Made by a program: the position numbers and the translations under genes | Assembly (NCBI GenBank): GCA_019118245.1 | Contig: DWZJ01000006.1 | Location: forward strand, 1 to 54,404 | Reading direction: 5' to 3' | Source: Candidatus Oscillibacter excrementigallinarum | Lineage (GTDB): Bacteria > Bacillota > Clostridia > Oscillospirales > Oscillospiraceae | DNA length: 54,404 bases | The notes under the pieces: model-generated | Database searches by the model: none | What the model was told of the DNA's origin: nothing | Seen by the model: the letters and a program-made list of their open reading frames with translations, nothing else | Part shown: positions 3,923 through 34,657 of the stretch, piece after piece | Position numbering within the stretch: the stretch's first letter is position 1 | Layout: every line of letters begins with the position of its first letter

Positions 3923-3957
3923 AAAGCGCCCCGGAGCGAGAGCTCCGGGGCGCTTTT
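3923..3957. terminator. Bidirectional terminator, argF / XRE gene
   Basis: A 15-bp perfect stem (AAAGCGCCCCGGAGC and its complement) closes on a GAGA tetraloop and is followed by a T run. The A run on the other side lets it also serve the convergent gene, whose stop codon overlaps the 3' edge. Confidence 0.92.
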
Positions 3958-5285
3958 TACGAATTTTCAATGGGGATCAGATCGCCGGGCTGCCAGCCAT
4001 CAGGAGCGGAAACCCTCCCCACCAGCGTGCCATCGTCGTTTTGCCAGTAATAAAACGGACGCCAGTCATTCCGGCCGTGGTCGTCGGCGATGCGGACGGC
4101 CGCTACCAGGGTGTCTCCGGGGTGCAGCGGCACTGGGTCCTCCGGCCCCATGGGAACGTGCATCTGCACATAGCCCTGCCGGTTCCACAGGTCCATGGCG
4201 GTGGTGAGGGGCGCGGACCACACCGGGACCGCATCGTCGTTGGAAAAGAGCGCCAGCTCTGCGTCTGTCAGCTCCAACGGAATGTCGGTTTCGTTGCTGA
4301 TCTGCAGGTCCAGTTCCTGGAACAGGAGACAACTGTTCTCCCACTCTTCCTCCCAGTTGCCGTTTATCCACAGCTGATAGGCGGACGGGTCCTCATACAG
4401 CGTTTCCAGGGATTCTATCTGACTGGTGTCCCCGTCGGTGAGGGTCACGGATACCTGGACCAGGGAGCCGCTCTCATCATCGTCCGCATCCATGACACCA
4501 GGCGGCACAGGCTCACCCATGGGCACGGCCCAGTTTTCCACCGTAAAGACGCCGCCGTCGTTCCGGGCCTGGGCCGATTCGGTTTTGCCGGTGTTGGTCC
4601 GGGCGGTGAAGGTGGCCACGGTGTCCGCCGTATACTCCTTGGGCGTTACGCTGGCGGTGAGATACCACACCGCTTTCTCCAGATCATAGTCCTGAATTTG
4701 GACGGTATAGTCGCTGATGAGGCTGTTCTGCTCCTCCAGCAGGCCGGAGATCTGGCCGGTGAGGGACTCGATTTGGCTGCTGACGCTGTCCTGAACGTAG
4801 TTGATCTGATCCTGGACCTGGTCCAGCTGGTACCCCAGAGAGAAAAAGATGCTGTCCAGAACCAGGACGAGCAGCAGCCCGGCGGCACAGGCCGCGGCCC
4901 CCGCGGCGAGCTTTTTCCGTCGGCTCCACCGGGGGCGCTGGACCGCCTCCAGATATTTTTGTACGATGGCCTCCACCGCCGCCAGCTCCCGGTCCGTCAG
5001 CTCTCCCGCCGGGGCGGCGTCCTCCGCCCCATCGCCGGGGGACTCCGGGGCGTCTCCTTCGGAAGGGGCCTCCGGCGGCTCCACCCCCAGCAGGGCGCCG
5101 ATGGTGATGCCGAAGATGCGGCTCATGGCGATGAGGTTCTCCAGGTCCGGCACACTGGCGTCAGATTCCCATTTGCTGACCGCCTGGCGGCTGACGCCCA
5201 GCCGCTCCCCCAGGGACTCCTGGGAGAGGCCGGCGGCCTTCCGGGCCTCTTGGACGCGGCGGCCCAGGGTCTGCTGCTCCCGCAT
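3957..5285 (-). CDS. XRE-family protein with one membrane helix and an extracellular domain
   Basis: The 442-residue protein begins with a classical XRE helix-turn-helix (residues about 5-60, with the GLSQESLGERLGVSRQAVSKWE signature). An acidic linker follows, then a basic RRKK stretch and one transmembrane helix near 126-148. Next is a short coiled coil rich in Gln/Ser and Leu (about 150-195), and a 240-residue domain with FxxEN-type content predicted to lie outside the cell. The start at 5285 is set by AAAGGAG seven bases upstream. The layout suggests a one-component membrane-bound regulator that senses something outside, but I do not recognise the sensor domain and cannot name targets. 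Confidence 0.8.
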   Translation of the reverse strand: MREQQTLGRRVQEARKAAGLSQESLGERLGVSRQAVSKWESDASVPDLENLIAMSRIFGITIGALLGVEPPEAPSEGDAPESPGDGAEDAAPAGELTDRELAAVEAIVQKYLEAVQRPRWSRRKKLAAGAAACAAGLLLVLVLDSIFFSLGYQLDQVQDQINYVQDSVSSQIESLTGQISGLLEEQNSLISDYTVQIQDYDLEKAVWYLTASVTPKEYTADTVATFTARTNTGKTESAQARNDGGVFTVENWAVPMGEPVPPGVMDADDDESGSLVQVSVTLTDGDTSQIESLETLYEDPSAYQLWINGNWEEEWENSCLLFQELDLQISNETDIPLELTDAELALFSNDDAVPVWSAPLTTAMDLWNRQGYVQMHVPMGPEDPVPLHPGDTLVAAVRIADDHGRNDWRPFYYWQNDDGTLVGRVSAPDGWQPGDLIPIENS

Positions 5286-5383
5286 GGTATCAACTCCTTT
5301 GCCACTACCATACCAGAGAACGGAGGGATGCGCAACCACCGGCGGGTTTCCCCAGTGTCAACCGGCGGTTGCGGCGGAATAGA

Positions 5384-5434: not shown

Positions 5435-6436
5435 TTATGCGGGGGCCGCCATGTCCAGCTCCTGGAACCGGTGGCAGAAGATAAAGTGGCCCGGCTCCGC
5501 CTCCACCCACTTGGGCTCCTGGGCGCAGCACTCCGCCGCGTAGGGGCAGCGGGTGCGGAACCGGCAGCCGGAGGGCGGGTCCGCCGGGGAGGGGATGTCG
5601 CCCTCCAGAATGATGCGGTCCCGGCGGCCGAACTGGCCCACCCGGGGCGCGGCGGACAGAAGCGCCTTGGTATAGGGGTGCAGGGGATGGCGGAAGATGG
5701 CCTCGTTGCTGCCCAGCTCCACCATCTGGCCCAGGTACATGATGGCCACCCGGTCGCAGATATGCTCCACCACGCTGAGGTCATGGCTGATGAAGAGATA
5801 CGTCAGCCCCAGCTGCTGCTGCAGGTCCTGCAGCAGGTTCAGGATCTGGGCCCGGACAGACACATCCAGGGCGGACACCGGCTCGTCGCAGATGATGAGC
5901 TTGGGCTGTGTGGCCAGGGCCCGGGCAATGACGATCCGCTGGCGCTGTCCGCCGGAGAACTCATGGGGATAGCGGTCCATGTGGGTCTCGTTGAGGCCCA
6001 CCATCTGCAGAAGCTCCTTCACCCGGGCCTCCCGGGCGCCGGGCTCGGTGTACAGGCCCCGGATGCGCATGGGCTCCTCGATGATCTGCCGCACGGTCAT
6101 GCGGGGATGCAGGGAGCTGTAGGGGTCCTGGAACACGATCTGCATATCCTTGCGCATGGCCCGCAGCTGGCGCTTGCTCTGGGCCATCAGGTCCACGTCG
6201 TCAAACTGGATGCTGCCCTGGGTGGGCTCGATGAGCCGCAGGACCGTCCGGGCCAGGGTGGTCTTGCCGCAGCCGGACTCCCCCACCAGGCCCAGGGTCT
6301 CCCCCTCATAGAGATGGAAGGAGACATGGTTCACCGCCTGGACGTAGCGCTTGGGCCCGAAGGGCCAGCCCTTGATGGGGAACCACTTGCACACGTCCTC
6401 CACATCCAGCAGCACGCGGGGATCAGACTGCGTCAT
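5435..6436 (-). CDS. Peptide-type ABC transporter ATPase (OppF/DppF family)
   Basis: Second ATPase subunit of a class of importers that carry peptides, nickel or other small solutes. The 333-residue protein has a Walker A motif GESGCGKTT (residues about 52-60), the signature FSGGQRQRI, Walker B LIICDEP and the switch His in LFISHDL. It ends with the C-terminal oligopeptide/dipeptide domain, which carries a Cys-containing CRFRTRCPYAAECC motif. It overlaps the upstream ATPase gene by four bases (ATGA type), showing translational coupling. The lysine riboswitch ahead of the operon implies a lysine-related substrate. Confidence 0.93.
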   Translation of the reverse strand: MTQSDPRVLLDVEDVCKWFPIKGWPFGPKRYVQAVNHVSFHLYEGETLGLVGESGCGKTTLARTVLRLIEPTQGSIQFDDVDLMAQSKRQLRAMRKDMQIVFQDPYSSLHPRMTVRQIIEEPMRIRGLYTEPGAREARVKELLQMVGLNETHMDRYPHEFSGGQRQRIVIARALATQPKLIICDEPVSALDVSVRAQILNLLQDLQQQLGLTYLFISHDLSVVEHICDRVAIMYLGQMVELGSNEAIFRHPLHPYTKALLSAAPRVGQFGRRDRIILEGDIPSPADPPSGCRFRTRCPYAAECCAQEPKWVEAEPGHFIFCHRFQELDMAAPA

Positions 6437-7407
6437 TTGGACACCTCCTCACAGCGGAAGCAGCGGACGGACCGTCCGCCGCCCATGTCGTAGAGCGGGG
6501 GCTTTTCGGCGGCGCACCGCGCGGTGGCGTAGGGGCACCGGGGGGCGAACACGCAGCCCTTGGGGAAGTCCAGGGCGGAGGGCACGGAGCCGGGAATCAC
6601 GTGGAGCCGCTCCCGGGTGCCCCGCTCCGGCAGGGAGGCCTTCAGCCCCTCGGTATAGGGGTGGAGGGGGGAGGTCAGCAGGGACTCCGTGTCTCCCTCC
6701 TCCATGATCTCCCCGCAGTAGAGGACGATGGTGCGGCTGCACAGCTCGCTGACCACCCCCAGGTCGTGGGTGATGAAGGCGATGGCGGTGCCCAGCTCGT
6801 CCCGCAGCTTGCACATCAGGTCCAGCACCTGGGCCTGGATGGTCACGTCCAGGGCGGTGGTGGGCTCGTCGGCGATCAGCAGCTCCGGCCGGCAGGCCAG
6901 GGCCATGGCGATCATCACCCGCTGACGCAGGCCGCCGGAGAGCTCGTAGGGATAGCAGTCCACCCGCTTTTCCGGCATGGGGACGTTCACCATCCGCAGG
7001 GCCTCGATGGACTTCTCCCGGGCCTGTTTCTTGTCCAGCCCCTGGTGGAGGCGGAACACCTCCATCAGCTGGTGGCCCACGGTGAACACCGGGTTCAGGG
7101 AGGTCATGGGCTCCTGGAAGATCATGGACACCCGGTTGCCCCGGATCCTGCGGAAGTCCTTCATGGGCATGTCCAGCAGGCTCTGGCCGTCCAGGACGAT
7201 GGAGCCGGAGACCTTGGCGTTGGACTGGGTCAGCCGCATAATGGACAGGGCCGTCATGCTCTTGCCGCAGCCGGACTCCCCCACGATGCCCAGGGTCTCC
7301 CCCTTGTAGATGTCGAAGCTGATGCCGTGGAGGATGTCCAGGGTGGCGGTGTCGGTCTCGATTTGGACCCGCAGGTCCCGGACCTGCAGAGCAGTGTTGT
7401 CGTTCAT
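6433..7407 (-). CDS. Peptide-type ABC transporter ATPase (OppD/DppD family)
   Basis: First ATPase subunit of the five-gene importer. Its 324 residues include Walker A GESGCGKS (about 43-50), a slightly variant signature LSGGLRQRV, Walker B LLIADEP, switch His in FITHDLGVV, and the C-terminal oligopeptide/dipeptide domain with [14 protein letters not shown]. Its pairing with the next ATPase gives the usual OppD-OppF heterodimer on the cytoplasmic face. It lies 13 bases after the permease gene and overlaps the second ATPase gene. Substrate range cannot be read from the ATPases. Confidence 0.93.
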
Positions 7408-7420
7408 CTTGCCGCCTCCC

Positions 7421-8254
7421 TCACTTCATTTTCGGATCCAACAGGTCCCGCAGGCCGTCGCCCAGGATGCTGATGCTCAGGACCGTGATCACGATGGCCA
7501 GGCCGGGATAGATGGCCATATAGGGGTGGGTGATGACAAAGTCCTTGGCCGTGCTGAGAATGGCGCCCCAGGTGGGCACCGTGGGGTCCACGCCCACACC
7601 CAGAAAGCTCAGGGAGGCCTCCGTCAGAATGGCGCTGGCCATGGTGGTGGTGAACCGGATGATCAGCGGGGACACGCACAGGGGCAGGATATATCGGAAC
7701 ATGATGCGCCCGTCCGTGGCGCCCATGGCCCGGGCGCTCTCCACGTGCTCGCTCTCCTTGATGGAGAGGACCTGGCTGCGGACGATGCGGGCCACGCTGG
7801 GAGTGCCCACGATGGACAGGGCCAAAATCACCTTGTCCACGCCGTTGCCGAAAATGCAGGCCAGCGTCAGGGCCAGAAGCATATCCGGGAAGGCGGACAA
7901 TCCCTCCAAGATCCGCATGACGATGCGGTCCACTGTTTTGTAGTAGCCCATCAGCAGGCCCAGCACGATGCCCGCGGCCGTGGACACGGCGGCCACCGCC
8001 ACGCCCACCAGCAGGGAGACCCGGGCACCGTAGAGGACCCAGGAGAACACATCCCGGCCGAAGCGGTCGGTGCCCATCCAGTGGACGGCGCTGGGGAACT
8101 GCAGCAGCTCCGCGCCGTTGGTGGCGGTGGGCTCATAGGGGGTGATCAGAGGGGCGGCCAGGGTGGCCAGGACGATCAGCACCAGCACGCCGCCCCCCAG
8201 CAGGATCCGGCCGTACTTCCGCAGAAAGACCGAGGGTCTCATTCGATGTATCAA
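7421..8254 (-). CDS. Peptide-type ABC transporter permease (OppC/DppC family)
   Basis: Inner-membrane permease of 277 residues with an N-terminal helix followed by a periplasm-facing stretch and a BPD_transp_1 core; the EAA-type coupling segment is seen as ESARAMGATDGRIMFRYILP. I chose the TTG at 8254 as start because GGAGGG lies about seven bases upstream; the next in-frame ATG at 8242 would be too far from that RBS. It follows the other permease gene by 13 bases. Confidence 0.9.
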   Translation of the reverse strand: MIHRMRPSVFLRKYGRILLGGGVLVLIVLATLAAPLITPYEPTATNGAELLQFPSAVHWMGTDRFGRDVFSWVLYGARVSLLVGVAVAAVSTAAGIVLGLLMGYYKTVDRIVMRILEGLSAFPDMLLALTLACIFGNGVDKVILALSIVGTPSVARIVRSQVLSIKESEHVESARAMGATDGRIMFRYILPLCVSPLIIRFTTTMASAILTEASLSFLGVGVDPTVPTWGAILSTAKDFVITHPYMAIYPGLAIVITVLSISILGDGLRDLLDPKMK

Positions 8255-8267
8255 AGTTTGACCCTCC

Positions 8268-9215
8268 TCAGCTCAGCTCGACCCTGGGGTCGAACACCTT
8301 GTACAAGATGTCCACCACCAGGTTGATGACGATATAGACCAGTGCCACCACCAGGATGATGGCCTGGACCTGGGTGTAGTCCCGGCGGATCAGAGAGTCA
8401 TAGGCCAGCTTGCCCATGCCGTTGATGCCGAACACCGTCTCGATGACGCAGGCGCCGCCCATCAGGGACGCCATGTTGGTGCCGATGTGGGTGATGACCG
8501 GGGACATGGCGTTTTTCAGCGCGTGCTGGTACAGCACCACCCGCTCCGCAAGGCCCTTGGCCCGGGCGGTGCGGATGTAGTCCTCGCCCAGGGTGTCCAG
8601 CATGGTGGACCGGGTGTACCGGGCGATGGAGGCCACACTCTGGAAGCCCAGTGCCACCGAGGGCAGGATGACATACTGGATGGCCTGGCCCAGTCCCACC
8701 TGGGAGATGGGGTAGTAGTACATATTGGGCAGGACGCCCCACAGAGTGCCCACATAGTAGGCCAGCATGATGCCGCTCCAGAACACGGGGATGGAGAGGC
8801 CGAACACGGACACGGTCATCAGCAGATAGTCCAGAATGCTGTTGCGGTGGACGGCGCTGATGACGCCCACGGGGATGCCGATGACCACGGAGATCAGGAT
8901 GCTGAAGATCATGATCAGGATGGTGGGCTCCAGGCTGTTGCGGATGTTCTCCATCACCGGCAGGTTGTTGTACAGGGAGGTCCCCAGGTCCCCGTGGAGG
9001 ATGCCCTGGATGTAATCCCAGAACTGGACCAGCTTGGGCTCATTGAGGCCCAGGGTCTCCCGCAGAATCTCCAGGTCGCCCGGAGGGGCGTCGTGGCCCA
9101 GGATCTGCACCGCCACGTCGCCGGGCAGCATCCGCATCAGGAAGAAGGTGATGAACACCACGATGAGGAGCACGGGGATCGCGGAAAGGATGCGCTTGAC
9201 GATAAATTTGAACAC
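8268..9215 (-). CDS. Peptide-type ABC transporter permease (OppB/DppB family)
   Basis: Inner-membrane permease of 315 residues. It begins with a membrane helix after FKFIVKRIL, has the PGD motif (MRMLPGDVA) of the family, and an EAA-type loop around RTARAKGLAERVVLYQHALKN. The GTG at 9215 is taken as start: GAGGAAG lies upstream, and family homology starts exactly there. The frame is open to 9290, but that stretch is Cys/Arg-rich and unlike the family. Forms the translocation path with the OppC-type subunit. Confidence 0.9.
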   Translation of the reverse strand: MFKFIVKRILSAIPVLLIVVFITFFLMRMLPGDVAVQILGHDAPPGDLEILRETLGLNEPKLVQFWDYIQGILHGDLGTSLYNNLPVMENIRNSLEPTILIMIFSILISVVIGIPVGVISAVHRNSILDYLLMTVSVFGLSIPVFWSGIMLAYYVGTLWGVLPNMYYYPISQVGLGQAIQYVILPSVALGFQSVASIARYTRSTMLDTLGEDYIRTARAKGLAERVVLYQHALKNAMSPVITHIGTNMASLMGGACVIETVFGINGMGKLAYDSLIRRDYTQVQAIILVVALVYIVINLVVDILYKVFDPRVELS

Positions 9216-9321
9216 GGGATCTCTTCCTCTCTTGCAAACGGCGGCACAGGCTGACCTCCGCCGAACCGGGAAGCAGGGAAGGCAATCCACCTTGCCTCCC
9301 CTGCTCTGGGTGCCATGTGAT

Positions 9322-11004
9322 TTACGCGGCCTTAAAGTAGGAGTTCCACCAGTACATATCCACGCCCTGGCGGTCCGGGATCATGTTCTCGGAATACCAG
9401 CAGACGGTGCCGAAGTCGCCCAGGATGATGTAGGGCACCTGGTCGTCCAGCAGGGTGCAGAAGTCGGCAAAGGCCTGGATGCTCTCCTCGCTGCCGGCGG
9501 CGGTGCTGCCCAGCCGCTCGATGATCTCGGTGCGCTCGGGGCTGTCCCACAGCAGGTAGCCGGAGACGAACTGGCTCAGCAGCGGGTGGAGATAGGACTT
9601 CTGGGTCTCCCGGCAGCAGATGTCGAAGTCGGCGCAGTTGGGGTCATTGTAGCTGGCCTCGTAGGTGGTCACGTCCATCAGAGACAGCTCCACATTGACG
9701 CCGATGGCCTTCAGGTTCTCAGAGGCGGGCAGGGCGGTGGTGTAGTAGGAGTCGGAGTCCGCGCACCACCAGCGGATGGTCTCGCCGTTGTAGCCGGAGG
9801 CGTCCAGATACTCCTTGGCCTTCTCCAGGTCCTGGCCCATGTTCTGGTTCAGGATATCGTTGTAATAGGGGCTGGAGGGCATCATGGGGCAGCCGTCCAC
9901 CTCATACTGGGTGGGGTCGGTCTTGGTGGACAGGAGGATGGAGTCTGCGTCCAGGCAGGCCCGGACGGCCCGGCGGAAGTTCACATCCTGGACGATGCTG
10001 TTGGCGTTGGCGTCGGACAGGTTGAAGATGATGGTGGGGGACCAGCCGTTCCAGTCCTTGTCGCTCCAGCAGCCGGCGTTTTCCAGCTGGGGCGCCATGG
10101 CGGTGAGGATGGAGGTGGAGTAGTCAAAGACGTTGCCGATCATGCCGTTGGCCCGGGCGGTCTGGTCGCTGGCCACGGAGCAGTAGATCTTGTCGAAATA
10201 GGCGTGCCGGGGGGCGGCGGGGCCGGTGCCGGCGATGTCGTCGGGCACGGGGACGTAGTCCTCGAACCGGGTGAGGGTCAGGTCCGTCTCCCGGTTCCAG
10301 CTCTCCAGCATATAGGGGCCGGTGCCCACGATCTCACTGTCGTCGGTGATATAGGAGTCCATGTGGGCCTGGGCGATCTCGGCGGGCATCACCTTGCAGC
10401 CGCCCTTCAGCTCACCGATGGTCAGCAGGGCGATGGGGGCCACCTCGGAGAGGGTGTACACCACCGTCATGTCGTCCTGGACCTGGGTGTCCACGATATA
10501 GTCGCCGAAGTTGGCCTGGCCGGTGGAGGAGTACACCAGGAACCGGTCGATGGAGGCCACCACGTCGTTGACGTCCACCGTGTCGCCGTTGTGGAACTTG
10601 ACGCCCTCCCGCACGGTGAGCGTCAGCCGCAGGTTGTCGTCGCTCATCTCATAGGTGCACACGCCGGGCCACACGGAGCCGTCGTCCGCCACCTGCACCG
10701 GGGACTCGTAGATGTGGTAGCCGGGGACATAGTTCTGGTTGGTGAAGAACTGGGCCGGGTCCAGGGAGTTGGTGGCGCCGTTGAAGTTCAGGCGCATGGT
10801 GCCGCCGTACTTCTCCTCCTCCGGCGTGGTGTCGGCGGCCAGGCGCTCGGCGCTGGTGCCCTCGGTGAAGGCGCTGCCGGTGGTGCCGCCGCCGTCCGGA
10901 GTCGTGGTGGTGCCGGCCTGCTGGCCGCCGCAGCCGCTCAGCGCGCCCGCCAGCAAAGCCGCAGCGGTCAGTACGCTGAGGAGCCGGCCATGGAATTTCA
11001 TCAT
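9322..11004 (-). CDS. Peptide-type ABC transporter solute-binding lipoprotein (SBP_bac_5)
   Basis: Extracytoplasmic binding protein of 560 residues that delivers substrate to the permeases encoded downstream. The signal peptide ends in a lipobox (GALSGC, Cys near residue 29), followed by a Thr/Gly linker and a typical SBP family 5 body (VREGVKFHNGDTVDVNDVVAS). The start at 11004 is placed by GGGAGG eight bases upstream; the open frame to 11097 runs into the riboswitch terminator and is not translated. As first gene behind the lysine riboswitch, this protein is the most direct candidate to bind lysine, a lysine-containing peptide or a lysine precursor. That substrate is inference. Confidence 0.92.
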   Translation of the reverse strand: MMKFHGRLLSVLTAAALLAGALSGCGGQQAGTTTTPDGGGTTGSAFTEGTSAERLAADTTPEEEKYGGTMRLNFNGATNSLDPAQFFTNQNYVPGYHIYESPVQVADDGSVWPGVCTYEMSDDNLRLTLTVREGVKFHNGDTVDVNDVVASIDRFLVYSSTGQANFGDYIVDTQVQDDMTVVYTLSEVAPIALLTIGELKGGCKVMPAEIAQAHMDSYITDDSEIVGTGPYMLESWNRETDLTLTRFEDYVPVPDDIAGTGPAAPRHAYFDKIYCSVASDQTARANGMIGNVFDYSTSILTAMAPQLENAGCWSDKDWNGWSPTIIFNLSDANANSIVQDVNFRRAVRACLDADSILLSTKTDPTQYEVDGCPMMPSSPYYNDILNQNMGQDLEKAKEYLDASGYNGETIRWWCADSDSYYTTALPASENLKAIGVNVELSLMDVTTYEASYNDPNCADFDICCRETQKSYLHPLLSQFVSGYLLWDSPERTEIIERLGSTAAGSEESIQAFADFCTLLDDQVPYIILGDFGTVCWYSENMIPDRQGVDMYWWNSYFKAA

Positions 11005-11032: not shown

Positions 11033-11083
11033 CAAAATAAAACTGCCATGAGAATCCCCTGAACCGAGGAACATCCATGGCAG
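11033..11083 (-). terminator. Riboswitch expression-platform terminator
   Basis: On the minus-strand transcript the stem CTGCCATG...CATGGCAG (with an inner TCCTC/GGGGA helix) is followed by TTTTATTTT. It lies between the lysine aptamer and the binding-protein gene, where a transcription-off switch would place its terminator. Confidence 0.88.
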
Positions 11084-11111
11084 GATACGGACGGCAAGGC
11101 CCGTAAGCACA

Positions 11112-11284
11112 GTCAATGATAACGCTCCACAAGGTTTTGTGGCAGTCTGGGGGATATTCTCCCACAGCCCAGGCAACCGTCCGCAGGGGGCATCGGACGG
11201 CCCTTCGGCGGCAGCGCCTTTCTCCGAAGGATTGCCTGTCCTGTTGCTCGGATACTCTTCACGACCGCGCCTCTACCATTGATC
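11112..11284 (-). promoter_or_regulatory. Lysine riboswitch (L-box)
   Basis: The minus-strand RNA shows the conserved L-box blocks in order: AGAGGCGCGGTCGTGAAGAG with the AGTA turn, GGAGAAAGGCGC, GCCGAAGGGC, CTGGGCTGTGGGA..TCCCCCAG (P5), GACTGCC and GTGGAGCG. The closing P1 helix pairs 11274-11284 with 11112-11122. At about 173 nt it matches the class size. A terminator follows at 11033-11083, so lysine binding should end transcription of the five-gene ABC importer. Confidence 0.95.
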
Positions 11285-11332
11285 TATTCTGACCGGCCCA
11301 AAAACGAGCCGGAACCATATAAATCGGCAATT

Positions 11333-11361
11333 ATTCTATCAAAACTTATACGGTGTGTCAA
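11333..11361 (-). promoter_or_regulatory. Consensus promoter of the lysine-riboswitch operon
   Basis: On the minus strand TTGACA (11356-11361) and TAGAAT (11333-11338) are separated by exactly 17 bases. The expected transcript start, near 11326, lies about 40 bases upstream of riboswitch P1. Confidence 0.88.
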
Positions 11362-11533: not shown

Positions 11534-12700
11534 ATGATTTTTGGTATCCTGAAAGACATCAAGGAAGAGGAATTCCGGGTGATCTGCACCCCCATGGAGG
11601 TCCACAGCATCCGCGCCGCCGGACACGAGGTCTGGGCCCAGCACGACTGCGGCAAGCTGGCCGGCTTCCCGGACGAGGCCTACGCCGCCGCCGGCGCCCG
11701 GATCGTGGAGACGGCTGAGGAAATGTACGCCGGCTGCGACATGGTGGCCAAGGTAAAGGAGTTCACCCCCGCCGAGTGCGCCATGATGCACCCGGGCCAG
11801 ATCGTGCTGGGCTGCATCCACCCCGCCGCCCACCCGGAGGAGGTGGACGCCCTGCTGAAGAGCAAGTGCATCGCCTTCACGGCGGAGGACTCTCACCGGT
11901 ACGGCTCCCCCAACTGCGAGGCCGCCGGCAAGGAGGGCGCCCTGCTGGGACTGGAGTCCATGCTGACCGTCAACGGCGGCAAGGGCAAGTACGTGGGCGG
12001 CTTCGCCGGCGCTCCGGGCATGAACGTGCTGATCCTGGGCGGCGGCACCGTGGGCCAGGCGGCATTGCAGGTGCTCCACGCCCTGGGGGCCAAGTGCACG
12101 GTGATGGACATCAACGTGGGCATCCTCCGCACCCTGTCCAACCAGTACCAGGGCACCATCGACACCATGTTCTGCAACCAGGAGACCATTGCCTCCGTGC
12201 TGCCCCAGACGGACATGGTGCTCAACTGCGTCAAGTGGCCCAAGGAGCGCACCGACTTCCTGATCACGAAGGAGATGCTGAAGCTGATGGAGCCCGGCTC
12301 CGTGCTGGTGGACATCTCCAACGACGATCCCGGCGCCATCGAGTCCAGCCACGAGACCCACTTCGACAACCCCCGGTACGTGGTCAACGGCGTGGTCCAC
12401 TACTGCGTCAGCAACATCCCCAGCGCGGTGGCCAACTCCACCTCTGTTGCCTATGCCGCCGAGATGCTGCCCTTCATTTTGAGCATCCTCAACAACGGCG
12501 TGGCGGAGTGCTGCGCGCGGGACGGCTTCTACCGCCGGAGTCTGACAGTGTATGAGGGCTACCTGACCCACGAGGAGACCAGCGCCATCCAGAACAAGCC
12601 CTGGATCCGCCCGGAGGACATCCTGGGCATCGCGGACCGGAAGCTGGACATGGCGCCCCCCGCCACCGTCACCCGCTCCACCCTGTTTTACGAGAAGTGA
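11534..12700 (+). CDS. Alanine dehydrogenase / PNT-family amino-acid dehydrogenase
   Basis: The 388-residue protein has the N-terminal AlaDh/PNT fold (MIFGILKDIKEEEFRVICTP; KVKE; GCIHPAAHPE with the catalytic-type His), a Rossmann NAD(P) site VLILGGGTVG near residue 170, and the family's VVNGVVHYCVSNIPSAV motif. Classical Ald makes pyruvate and ammonia from alanine. This protein is divergent in several stretches, and relatives in the superfamily act on lysine (saccharopine dehydrogenase) or on ornithine/lysine with pyruvate (carboxyethylornithine synthase), so substrate should not be assumed. Its divergent position beside a lysine-regulated importer makes a basic amino acid worth considering. 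Confidence 0.8.
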   Translation: MIFGILKDIKEEEFRVICTPMEVHSIRAAGHEVWAQHDCGKLAGFPDEAYAAAGARIVETAEEMYAGCDMVAKVKEFTPAECAMMHPGQIVLGCIHPAAHPEEVDALLKSKCIAFTAEDSHRYGSPNCEAAGKEGALLGLESMLTVNGGKGKYVGGFAGAPGMNVLILGGGTVGQAALQVLHALGAKCTVMDINVGILRTLSNQYQGTIDTMFCNQETIASVLPQTDMVLNCVKWPKERTDFLITKEMLKLMEPGSVLVDISNDDPGAIESSHETHFDNPRYVVNGVVHYCVSNIPSAVANSTSVAYAAEMLPFILSILNNGVAECCARDGFYRRSLTVYEGYLTHEETSAIQNKPWIRPEDILGIADRKLDMAPPATVTRSTLFYEK

Positions 12701-33285: not shown

Positions 33286-34416
33286 TCAGCAGAACAGGCT
33301 TTTTTCCGTGGCGGGGTCAAAGAGGTGGACCAGCTGGCTGGAGAAGGTGAAGTGCATCCGGGTCCCATAGGGGACATTTCCCCGGTACTGGGCGGGCAGG
33401 TCCGTGGTGGGGATGCGCATAACCACGTCCTGGGCCGCCTCACCGCTGCCCACCACCGCGTGGAGATACACCTCGCTGCCCATGAGCTCGGAGACCTCCA
33501 CCGTGGCGGAGATGGCATTCTCCTCCTGGGCCTGGAGCTGGATGTGCTCCGGCCGCACGCCCACGATGACCTCGCCGCCGCTTTGGCCGCCTGCGGCCAG
33601 ACGGGCCGCCTGCTCCGCCGTCACAGAGAGGGTCGCGCCCATGCACTGGATCTGATAGCCCTCCCCCGCCTTTTCCAGGCTGCCCCGGAAGAAGTTCATC
33701 TGAGGCGTGCCGATGAAGCCGGCCACGAACAGGTTGTTGGGGGTGTCGAACACCTCCTGGGGGGTGCCAATCTGCTGCACCACGCCGTCCTTCATGATGA
33801 CGATCCGGTCGCCCAGAGTCATGGCCTCGGTCTGGTCGTGGGTCACATAGATGAAGGTGGTGTCGATGCGCTGGCGGAGCTTGATCAGCTCGGCCCGCAT
33901 CTGGTTGCGCAGCTTGGCGTCCAGGTTGGAAAGGGGCTCGTCCATCAGAAGGACCTTGGGCTCCCGGACGATGGCCCGGCCGATGGCCACCCGCTGGCGC
34001 TGGCCGCCGGAGAGGGCCTTGGGCTTGCGGTCCAGGTACTGGACGATGTCCAGGATCTCCGCCGCCTGCTGGACCCGGCGGTTGATCTCCTGCTTGTCCA
34101 CCTTCCGCAGCTTCAGGGGGAAGGCCATGTTCTCCCGCACGGTCATGTGGGGATACAGGGCGTAGCTCTGGAACACCATGGCGATGTCCCGGTCCTTGGC
34201 CTCCACATCGTTGACCAGCTTGCCGTCGATATACAGCTCGCCTTTGGAGATGTCCTCCAGCCCAGCCACCATCCGCAGGGTGGTGGACTTGCCGCAGCCG
34301 GAGGGACCCACCAGCACGATGAACTCCTTGTCGGCGATCTCCAGGTTGAAGTCACTCACCGCGGTGACGTTGTTGTCGTAGATCTTATAGATGTTTTTCA
34401 GACTGACAGTTGCCAT
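33286..34416 (-). CDS. Carbohydrate ABC transporter ATPase (MsmK/UgpC/MalK family)
   Basis: ATPase of 376 residues. It has Walker [10 protein letters not shown] near residue 38, Q-loop [14 protein letters not shown], signature [14 protein letters not shown], Walker [13 protein letters not shown] and switch His [10 protein letters not shown], then a C-terminal TOBE/OB regulatory domain typical of the CUT1 group. It energises the permeases encoded at 35666 and 38011. It is last in the operon, 241 bases after the hydrolase gene, and I see no strong RBS directly before the ATG at 34416. Confidence 0.92.
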
Positions 34417-34657
34417 AGTGTTGGGCCGCGATCCCCTTGCCTCCGCGCAGGGACCTCCCCGTGCGGGAGCGAGACCCGCACAGGATTACGGCAGGTCTCC
34501 ACACTGCCGCACCGCCGGCCGGCGGCTTGTTCCTCCTTTGTTGGGCCCGGCAGACCGAAGGGCGTGGAGCGGTCTGGGGGCTGTCAGAATGGCGCGCTCC
34601 CGGGGGAGGCGCGTGTGAGGGCGTGGGCCCGGGTCCGCGGCGCGATCCGCGGCACGA
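34417..34657 (-). other. Intergenic gap inside the sugar ABC operon
   Basis: No gene seen. It contains short hairpins, including GTGCGGG...CCCGCAC near 34460-34480, but no clear promoter, so the ATPase gene may be read from the operon or from an unrecognised start. Confidence 0.5.

Follow-up and report, generated by a model that had tools for sequence, protein, structure and literature searches.

A predicted lysine riboswitch (L box, RF00168) stands in front of a five-gene ABC importer of the SBP_bac_5 (Opp) type on the minus strand of the 54,404-nucleotide stretch of Candidatus Oscillibacter excrementigallinarum DNA analyzed here (the window). We consider it likely that this element is a transcription-attenuating OFF switch for the importer, and that the imported compound is turned into lysine. 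The aptamer, promoter, terminator, a possible alternative pairing and the conserved arrangement were computed; from these we infer lysine binding, the direction of control and the import of a compound that the cell converts to lysine. The riboswitch belongs to a known class, but its target is, as far as the literature searched shows, of a new kind.

The initial annotation had read a complete lysine riboswitch with a matching P1 helix from the minus strand, and proposed a scan of 11112-11284 with the Rfam lysine model. An Rfam scan of the whole window returned a significant covariance-model match at 11283-11112 (-), with 84.8 bits (E 7.8e-21) against a gathering score of 30 bits and covering model positions 1-182 of 182; it is one of two Rfam matches above gathering score in the window. 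The P1 strands, at about 11282-11274 and 11121-11113, are paired as had been claimed, and in the printed alignment the junction blocks of the RF00168 consensus are largely present in the window aptamer. Among six orthologous aptamers, two-sided changes that keep pairing were found in 11 of 54 predicted pairs, some of which are broken in other sequences. By sequence, this leader element is a lysine riboswitch, and it is predicted to bind lysine. The consensus promoter also held up: a pattern scan placed a near-consensus sigma-70 type promoter (TTGACA-17-TAGAAT, 11 of 12 matches, with an extended -10 in the form of TG before the -10 box) at 11361-11333 (-). Promoter-like sites numbered four in the 701-base region scanned, against 0.4 (sd 0.6) in shuffles.

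The aptamer is followed by an intrinsic terminator at about 11083-11034 (-), again in line with the initial annotation: a hairpin of -21.2 kcal/mol with the stem CTGCCATG...CATGGCAG, then the T run TTTTATTTT. A simple pattern scan of the leader region did not list it, probably because the stem is interrupted by internal loops. Terminators are present in all six orthologous leaders, the window's included (-21.2 to -25.6 kcal/mol). Across the six, the terminator 5′ arm (11083-11073 in the window, CTGCCATGGAT) is nearly invariant and the 3′ arm varies, mostly by one-sided changes (for example G-C to G-U) and with four broken cells, which is what a second partner for the 5′ arm would lead to. We propose as this partner the 5′ strand of P1 (11283-11273, minus strand), which in the window would form 10 pairs and one mismatch with the terminator arm (-12.0 kcal/mol). 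Of 300 dinucleotide shuffles, 8 gave a duplex as low in the window, and 5, 7, 15, 33, and 41 did so in the orthologous loci L053, L054, L055, L056, and L057, respectively. For the antiterminator, this amounts to a clear signal in the window, L053 and L054, a fair one in L055 and a weak one in L056 and L057.

We folded the nascent leader, ended before the terminator 3′ arm, and found the antiterminator preferred over P1 by 7.3 (window), 8.2 (L053), 5.1 (L054), and 7.0 kcal/mol (L055), and P1 preferred over the antiterminator by 1.0 (L056) and 2.5 kcal/mol (L057). Once the terminator was complete, the P1-forced fold beat the antiterminator-forced fold in all six leaders by 0.8 to 14.8 kcal/mol, with energies that contain no ligand or tertiary term; a third fold was the free optimum of the complete leader in the window, L053 and L055, lying below the P1-forced fold by 0.5, 3.8, and 2.5 kcal/mol. 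Modeled folding thus favors an OFF switch, clearly in four of the six species. With lysine scarce, the P1 5′ strand would pair with the terminator 5′ arm as an antiterminator and the operon would be read; with lysine bound, P1 would close, the terminator arm would be freed and transcription would end before the start codon. A leader that looks like an OFF switch implies that a shortage of lysine should bring on expression of the importer. Terminator-like hairpins, called without a shuffle control, also lie 3′ of the genome's other two lysine riboswitches and after the riboswitches of loci L169, L170, L280, L282, L171, and L175 (weakest in L282, -14.9 kcal/mol).

Domain models for all five genes 3′ of the riboswitch, all on the minus strand, bear out the earlier reading of an Opp/Dpp-type ABC importer (SBP_bac_5 class). 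A Shine-Dalgarno-like GGGAGG and an ATG at 11004, after the terminator, begin the gene for a 560-residue solute-binding lipoprotein (SBP) of the SBP_bac_5 family (9322-11004; PF00496, 164.9 bits; lipobox assigned by eye). Two BPD_transp_1 permeases follow, one of the OppB/GsiC type (8268-9215; PF00528, 147.3 bits, and PF19300, the stretch 8268-9206 having been scanned) whose start is probably the GTG at 9215, the frame staying open up to a GTG at 9290, and one of the OppC type (7421-8254; PF00528, 105.0 bits; PF12911 just above cut-off). The set ends with two ABC ATPases, of the OppD type (6433-7407; PF00005 and PF08352, oligo_HPY) and the OppF/DppF type (5435-6436; PF00005 and PF08352; NF008453 at 415 bits, cut-off 408). 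Intergenic gaps of 106, 13, and 13 bases and then a 4-base overlap give operon-like spacing. None of the NCBIfam SBP equivalogs (OppA, NikA, GsiB, and others) reaches its cut-off with the SBP, the best being NF045468 at 68.2 bits against 600; the family models therefore give no specific cargo. Beyond the ATPase genes, this strand carries a gene for an HTH protein (3957-5339) that was not found at this place in the ortholog loci.

The initial annotation had called for a survey of genomes for the same arrangement. An SBP search of GTDB genome contigs gave six loci from five genomes (an uncultured Oscillospiraceae bin, Candidatus Flavonifractor intestinipullorum, Clostridiales SUG478, Pseudoflavonifractor MSJ-37, and one further bin, whose operon is split over loci L057 and L058), with SBPs 78-91% identical to the window's. 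An RF00168 match of 75.1-86.7 bits precedes the orthologous importer in all five loci that reach upstream of the SBP gene, so that the pairing of riboswitch and importer is found in six of six species, the window's included. The four loci that reach far enough have the complete set of five opp genes. The genes 3′ of OppF differ among the ortholog loci, and the block is therefore held together by more than general synteny. Within the family, some SBP_bac_5 match is found in 239 of 300 genomes, and the window SBP at 80% or more in two (the window's own and G064, which was counted once with the Pseudoflavonifractor ortholog), the next match being at 30%; the arrangement was seen in none of the 300 outside the six species. 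A tblastn search of plasmids and phages for a mobile copy of the SBP gave only distant SBPs, every best place being below 60% identity.

We consider it quite probable that the cargo yields lysine, whether as bound lysine or diaminopimelate or as free lysine or a derivative. Between these, we think free lysine a weaker candidate than lysine in bound form or its precursor diaminopimelate (as short peptides or a derivative). The window's genome has three RF00168 matches, the window's included. The second precedes a 302-residue SBP_bac_3-type amino-acid binding protein whose best NCBIfam match is TIGR01096 (lysine/arginine/ornithine; 96.8 bits, below the cut-off of 256.35), and the third precedes a dapA-dapB-dapD/H-like cluster, the gene names being read from the sequence. 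A LysA-like decarboxylase is also encoded (265.8 bits, under its 297.9 cut-off). Free lysine is the less likely cargo because the genome already has this riboswitch-preceded amino-acid ABC system.

One tentative reading is that the importer salvages wall-derived or other peptides bearing diaminopimelate or lysine, cell-wall peptides then being a lysine source under lysine control. It draws on two further Opp-type operons behind lysine riboswitches in the family. The riboswitches of genomes G180 and G116 (96.5 and 91.1 bits) precede a wall-peptide recycling operon (L169 896-10848 and L170 758-10963) in the order MR_MLE epimerase (L-Ala-D/L-Glu-epimerase-like), SBP_bac_5, OppB, OppC, OppD, OppF, S66 LD-carboxypeptidase, and NlpC/P60 with SH3_16. 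Family models cover four of the L169 proteins (epimerase, SBP, carboxypeptidase, and NlpC/P60), and the permeases and ATPases of both loci were identified by eye and by tblastn matching to those of the window; L170 has an additional beta-lactamase-like gene, below cut-offs. The dpp-ykf operon of Bacillus subtilis is likewise a wall-peptide operon, in which ykfABC encode an epimerase, an LD-carboxypeptidase, and an NlpC/P60 protein, the same three additions seen in L169 and L170; it is controlled by CodY and is not known to be under a lysine riboswitch. In the third operon, a riboswitch of G156 (96.6 bits) precedes a peptidase S58, SBP_bac_5, OppBCDF, and a DppA-like M55 D-aminopeptidase.

The riboswitch was found in 4 of 20 loci of epimerase relatives (G180, G230, G116, and G014, all of genus g15), in each of which an OppA-type SBP follows the epimerase, the full operon being read in two (G180 and G116). 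In the locus of G269, the fifth g15 genome with the epimerase gene, the riboswitch is absent. The SBP lies beside the epimerase in 15 of the 20 loci, but 11 of these lack a riboswitch, so this operon is mostly not under one; among 20 relatives of the S58 peptidase, one has the riboswitch. That 16 of the 20 epimerase relatives examined go without one weighs against wall-peptide salvage, as does the window operon itself, which has no peptidase gene and in this differs from dpp-ykf.

The gene diverging from the window operon might also point to wall peptides. It encodes an alanine-dehydrogenase-like oxidoreductase (11534-12700, plus strand; PF05222 and PF01262) that stays below the alanine dehydrogenase cut-off (TIGR00518, 260.8 against 391.85 bits). 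Its Arg15, Lys75, His96, and Asp270, which we take to be the catalytic residues of alanine dehydrogenase, align as the same residues in alanine dehydrogenase alignments. It is the divergent neighbor in all five ortholog loci that reach that far, a contig end cutting it in L055. Against its value as evidence, orthologs near full length at 58% identity or more occur in 12 of 300 family genomes (plus a fragment in G185), of which two have the window importer and 10 have no window-type SBP; in G224 one lies, by eye, right behind oppD-oppF-like genes. The neighbor is a weak clue to the cargo because its orthologs also occur in these other contexts. We dropped an identity as carboxyethyl-lysine synthase, since the nearest solved relatives are alanine dehydrogenases. 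By eye, members of this subfamily adjoin transporter or peptidase genes in some relatives.

The binding protein offers a further comparison. MppA binds the peptide amino terminus through Asp439 (PMC6022919). In our alignment, E. coli OppA, MppA, and DppA and both epimerase-operon SBPs have Asp in this column, and the S58-operon SBP has Lys; Ser is found in E. coli GsiB (which is annotated as binding glutathione) and in five window-type SBPs (the window and L053-L056; L057 is cut before the column). A quick tree also places the epimerase-operon SBPs with OppA and MppA, and the window-type SBPs belong to another branch. The window operon thus shares the SBP-B-C-D-F gene set of Opp/Dpp and murein-peptide permeases (OppA, MppA, and DppE), but its SBP is without the Asp of OppA and MppA. 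The name "peptide importer" is therefore not secure: absence of the aspartate leaves room for peptides but takes away the main sequence reason for the name. The window SBP matches that of L171 at 25% over 349 residues, and no match was reported to those of L169 and L170. Being distant from the SBPs of the other two operons and without the N-terminus aspartate, it need not share the wall-peptide cargo suggested by analogy.

The missing aspartate is also what argues for a second possible reading, in which free lysine or a small derivative of it (an opine-like compound or a Maillard adduct, for example) is imported instead of peptides; we give it the same credence as wall-peptide salvage. Also on its side, AgaA, a nickel-binding protein, and Lmo0135 are among the nearest solved chains to the SBP, next to an unnamed SBP. 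The aspartate is not decisive, GsiB being without it in the same alignment, and the second riboswitch-preceded amino-acid ABC system speaks against free lysine. An AlphaFold2 model of the SBP built on the six orthologs gave no usable fold (mean pLDDT 33.4, pTM 0.27). The relationships of the aptamer itself lean toward amino-acid transport. In a FastTree of 155 aptamers (a short alignment, with moderate support) the six window-type aptamers form one group (0.847), and the sister of this group (0.875) belongs to an SBP_bac_3-type ABC operon of G064 (genes assigned by eye) that lies some 27 kb from the window-type locus on one contig. The riboswitches of the epimerase operons form a separate clade (0.989); by tree distance, their closest neighbors outside it are again of the SBP_bac_3 type. 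The tree makes it probable that on more than one occasion an amino-acid transporter's leader riboswitch was copied to an Opp-type operon. It is with reserve that we put forward a wider reading: in this family of gut Clostridia, Opp-type importers, the complete wall-peptide operon included, might have gained lysine riboswitches independently on two or more occasions; cell-wall peptides, or other bound lysine and diaminopimelate, would serve as a lysine reserve directly controlled by lysine; and the window SBP would be a new, non-OppA type of protein binding such a compound.

The same resemblance to amino-acid-transporter riboswitches would fit a third and unlikely reading, that the riboswitch was copied before the operon and controls it while the cargo, as for a general nitrogen or metal scavenger, is unrelated to lysine. 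Family-level matches of the SBP do include nickel-binding models, all far below cut-off. Against this, the arrangement is kept in all six species with highly similar SBPs and differing downstream genes, and the targets of lysine riboswitches elsewhere are mostly lysine genes. An ON switch, under which lysine or lysine peptides would be taken up as fermentation substrates, is very improbable: kal-kce-like lysine-fermentation genes (by eye) do follow a lysine riboswitch in 3 of the 147 listed family matches classed, but the terminator and alternative pairing of the window leader fit an OFF switch, and a BKACE (kce-type) protein was looked for and not found in the window's genome (95.76% complete), so that lysine fermentation through that enzyme is not indicated.

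We surveyed the genes behind lysine riboswitches in the family and the class. In the family, an RF00168 match is present in 160 of 200 genomes, and we classed the first gene behind 147 listed matches other than the window's own (G191:C12 and G081:C98 left out), taking an ORF start within 900 bases and the best BLASTP match, at E up to 1e-4, to reference proteins named from family models or by eye. These first genes were SBP_bac_3-type (41), NhaC-like antiporter (37), DapA-like (29), Asd-like (24), LysA-like (3), Kal-like (lysine fermentation; 3), epimerase (2), M14-like (2), S58 (1), amidohydrolase (1), amino-acid permease (1), and unclassed (3). The class survey comprised 70 listed matches, 30 of them supplied as loci and the other 40 picked largely from genomes that have several riboswitches, and is biased to high scores, so its counts are no frequency estimate: Asd-like 22, NhaC-like 20, DapA-like 8, SBP_bac_3-type 3, LysA-like 2, permease 1, and 14 without a reference match, 12 of which are LysP-, LysC-, or YfcC-like by eye. 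SBP_bac_5 was the first gene behind none of the 70 listed class matches; both surveys cover first genes, so that neither would catch an SBP_bac_5 gene in a later operon position.

Published riboswitch-controlled transporters are lysP/gabP, lysW (NhaC), yvsH, and lysX-lysY, with COG0833, COG1757, COG0531, and COG0834, in Table 2 of PMC5584792, and an SBP_bac_5 transporter is absent from the target survey in section 12 of that paper. The available portions of PMC3766115 and PMC11477304 name no Opp target of a lysine riboswitch, and a link between riboswitch and Opp is absent from those of PMC2222628, PMC6848492, and PMC12452182; PMC6848492, in the part available, has opp-3a and lysine genes in one list of ClpX-affected genes, with no riboswitch claim. 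In the mostly open-access literature searched, an SBP_bac_5 or Opp-type importer was not found as a lysine riboswitch target. The window element resembles the class known from dapA, lysC, lysP, lysW/NhaC, and lysX-lysY in its full aptamer, its predicted attenuator-type platform, and its place before a transporter, and differs in the SBP_bac_5/Opp-type importer that it precedes. A close comparison is lysX-lysY, an amino-acid ABC importer with a riboswitch, similar to the SBP_bac_3-type system elsewhere in the genome, and window-type aptamers look derived from such a leader; lysX-lysY is, however, of the SBP_bac_3 kind with a small SBP, whereas the window system has SBP_bac_5 and OppD/OppF-type ATPases. 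The lysine riboswitch before oligoendopeptidase F in Mycoplasma (PMC5584792, section 12) is likewise tied to peptide use, but involves a peptidase and a membrane protein and no SBP_bac_5 importer.

A riboswitch is one of the better pointers to what a transporter carries, and here a lysine riboswitch narrows the cargo of an SBP_bac_5 importer that annotation would call "peptide" or "nickel." Its place before the importer in these Flavonifractor-related gut bacteria suggests that the cargo serves as a lysine source. Together with the wall-peptide operon of relatives, it makes a testable case in which cell-wall or dietary bound lysine or diaminopimelate is a regulated lysine source in gut bacteria.

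Some other RNA elements were seen along the way. The three lysine riboswitches before kal/kce-like lysine-fermentation genes (by eye), where an ON switch would be expected, lie at G187:C87:4485-4661 (-), G125:C1:1267073-1267248 (-), and G036:C7:4977-5153 (+). Lysine riboswitches also precede two genes whose products look secreted, one with a weak match to zinc carboxypeptidases (M14; L173 857-4036) and the other an amidohydrolase (L172 844-2910). Elsewhere in the window, a malK-I RNA (RF03069, 117.6 bits) at 34411-34587 (-) stands directly before 33286-34416, a sugar-type ABC ATPase-like gene by eye.
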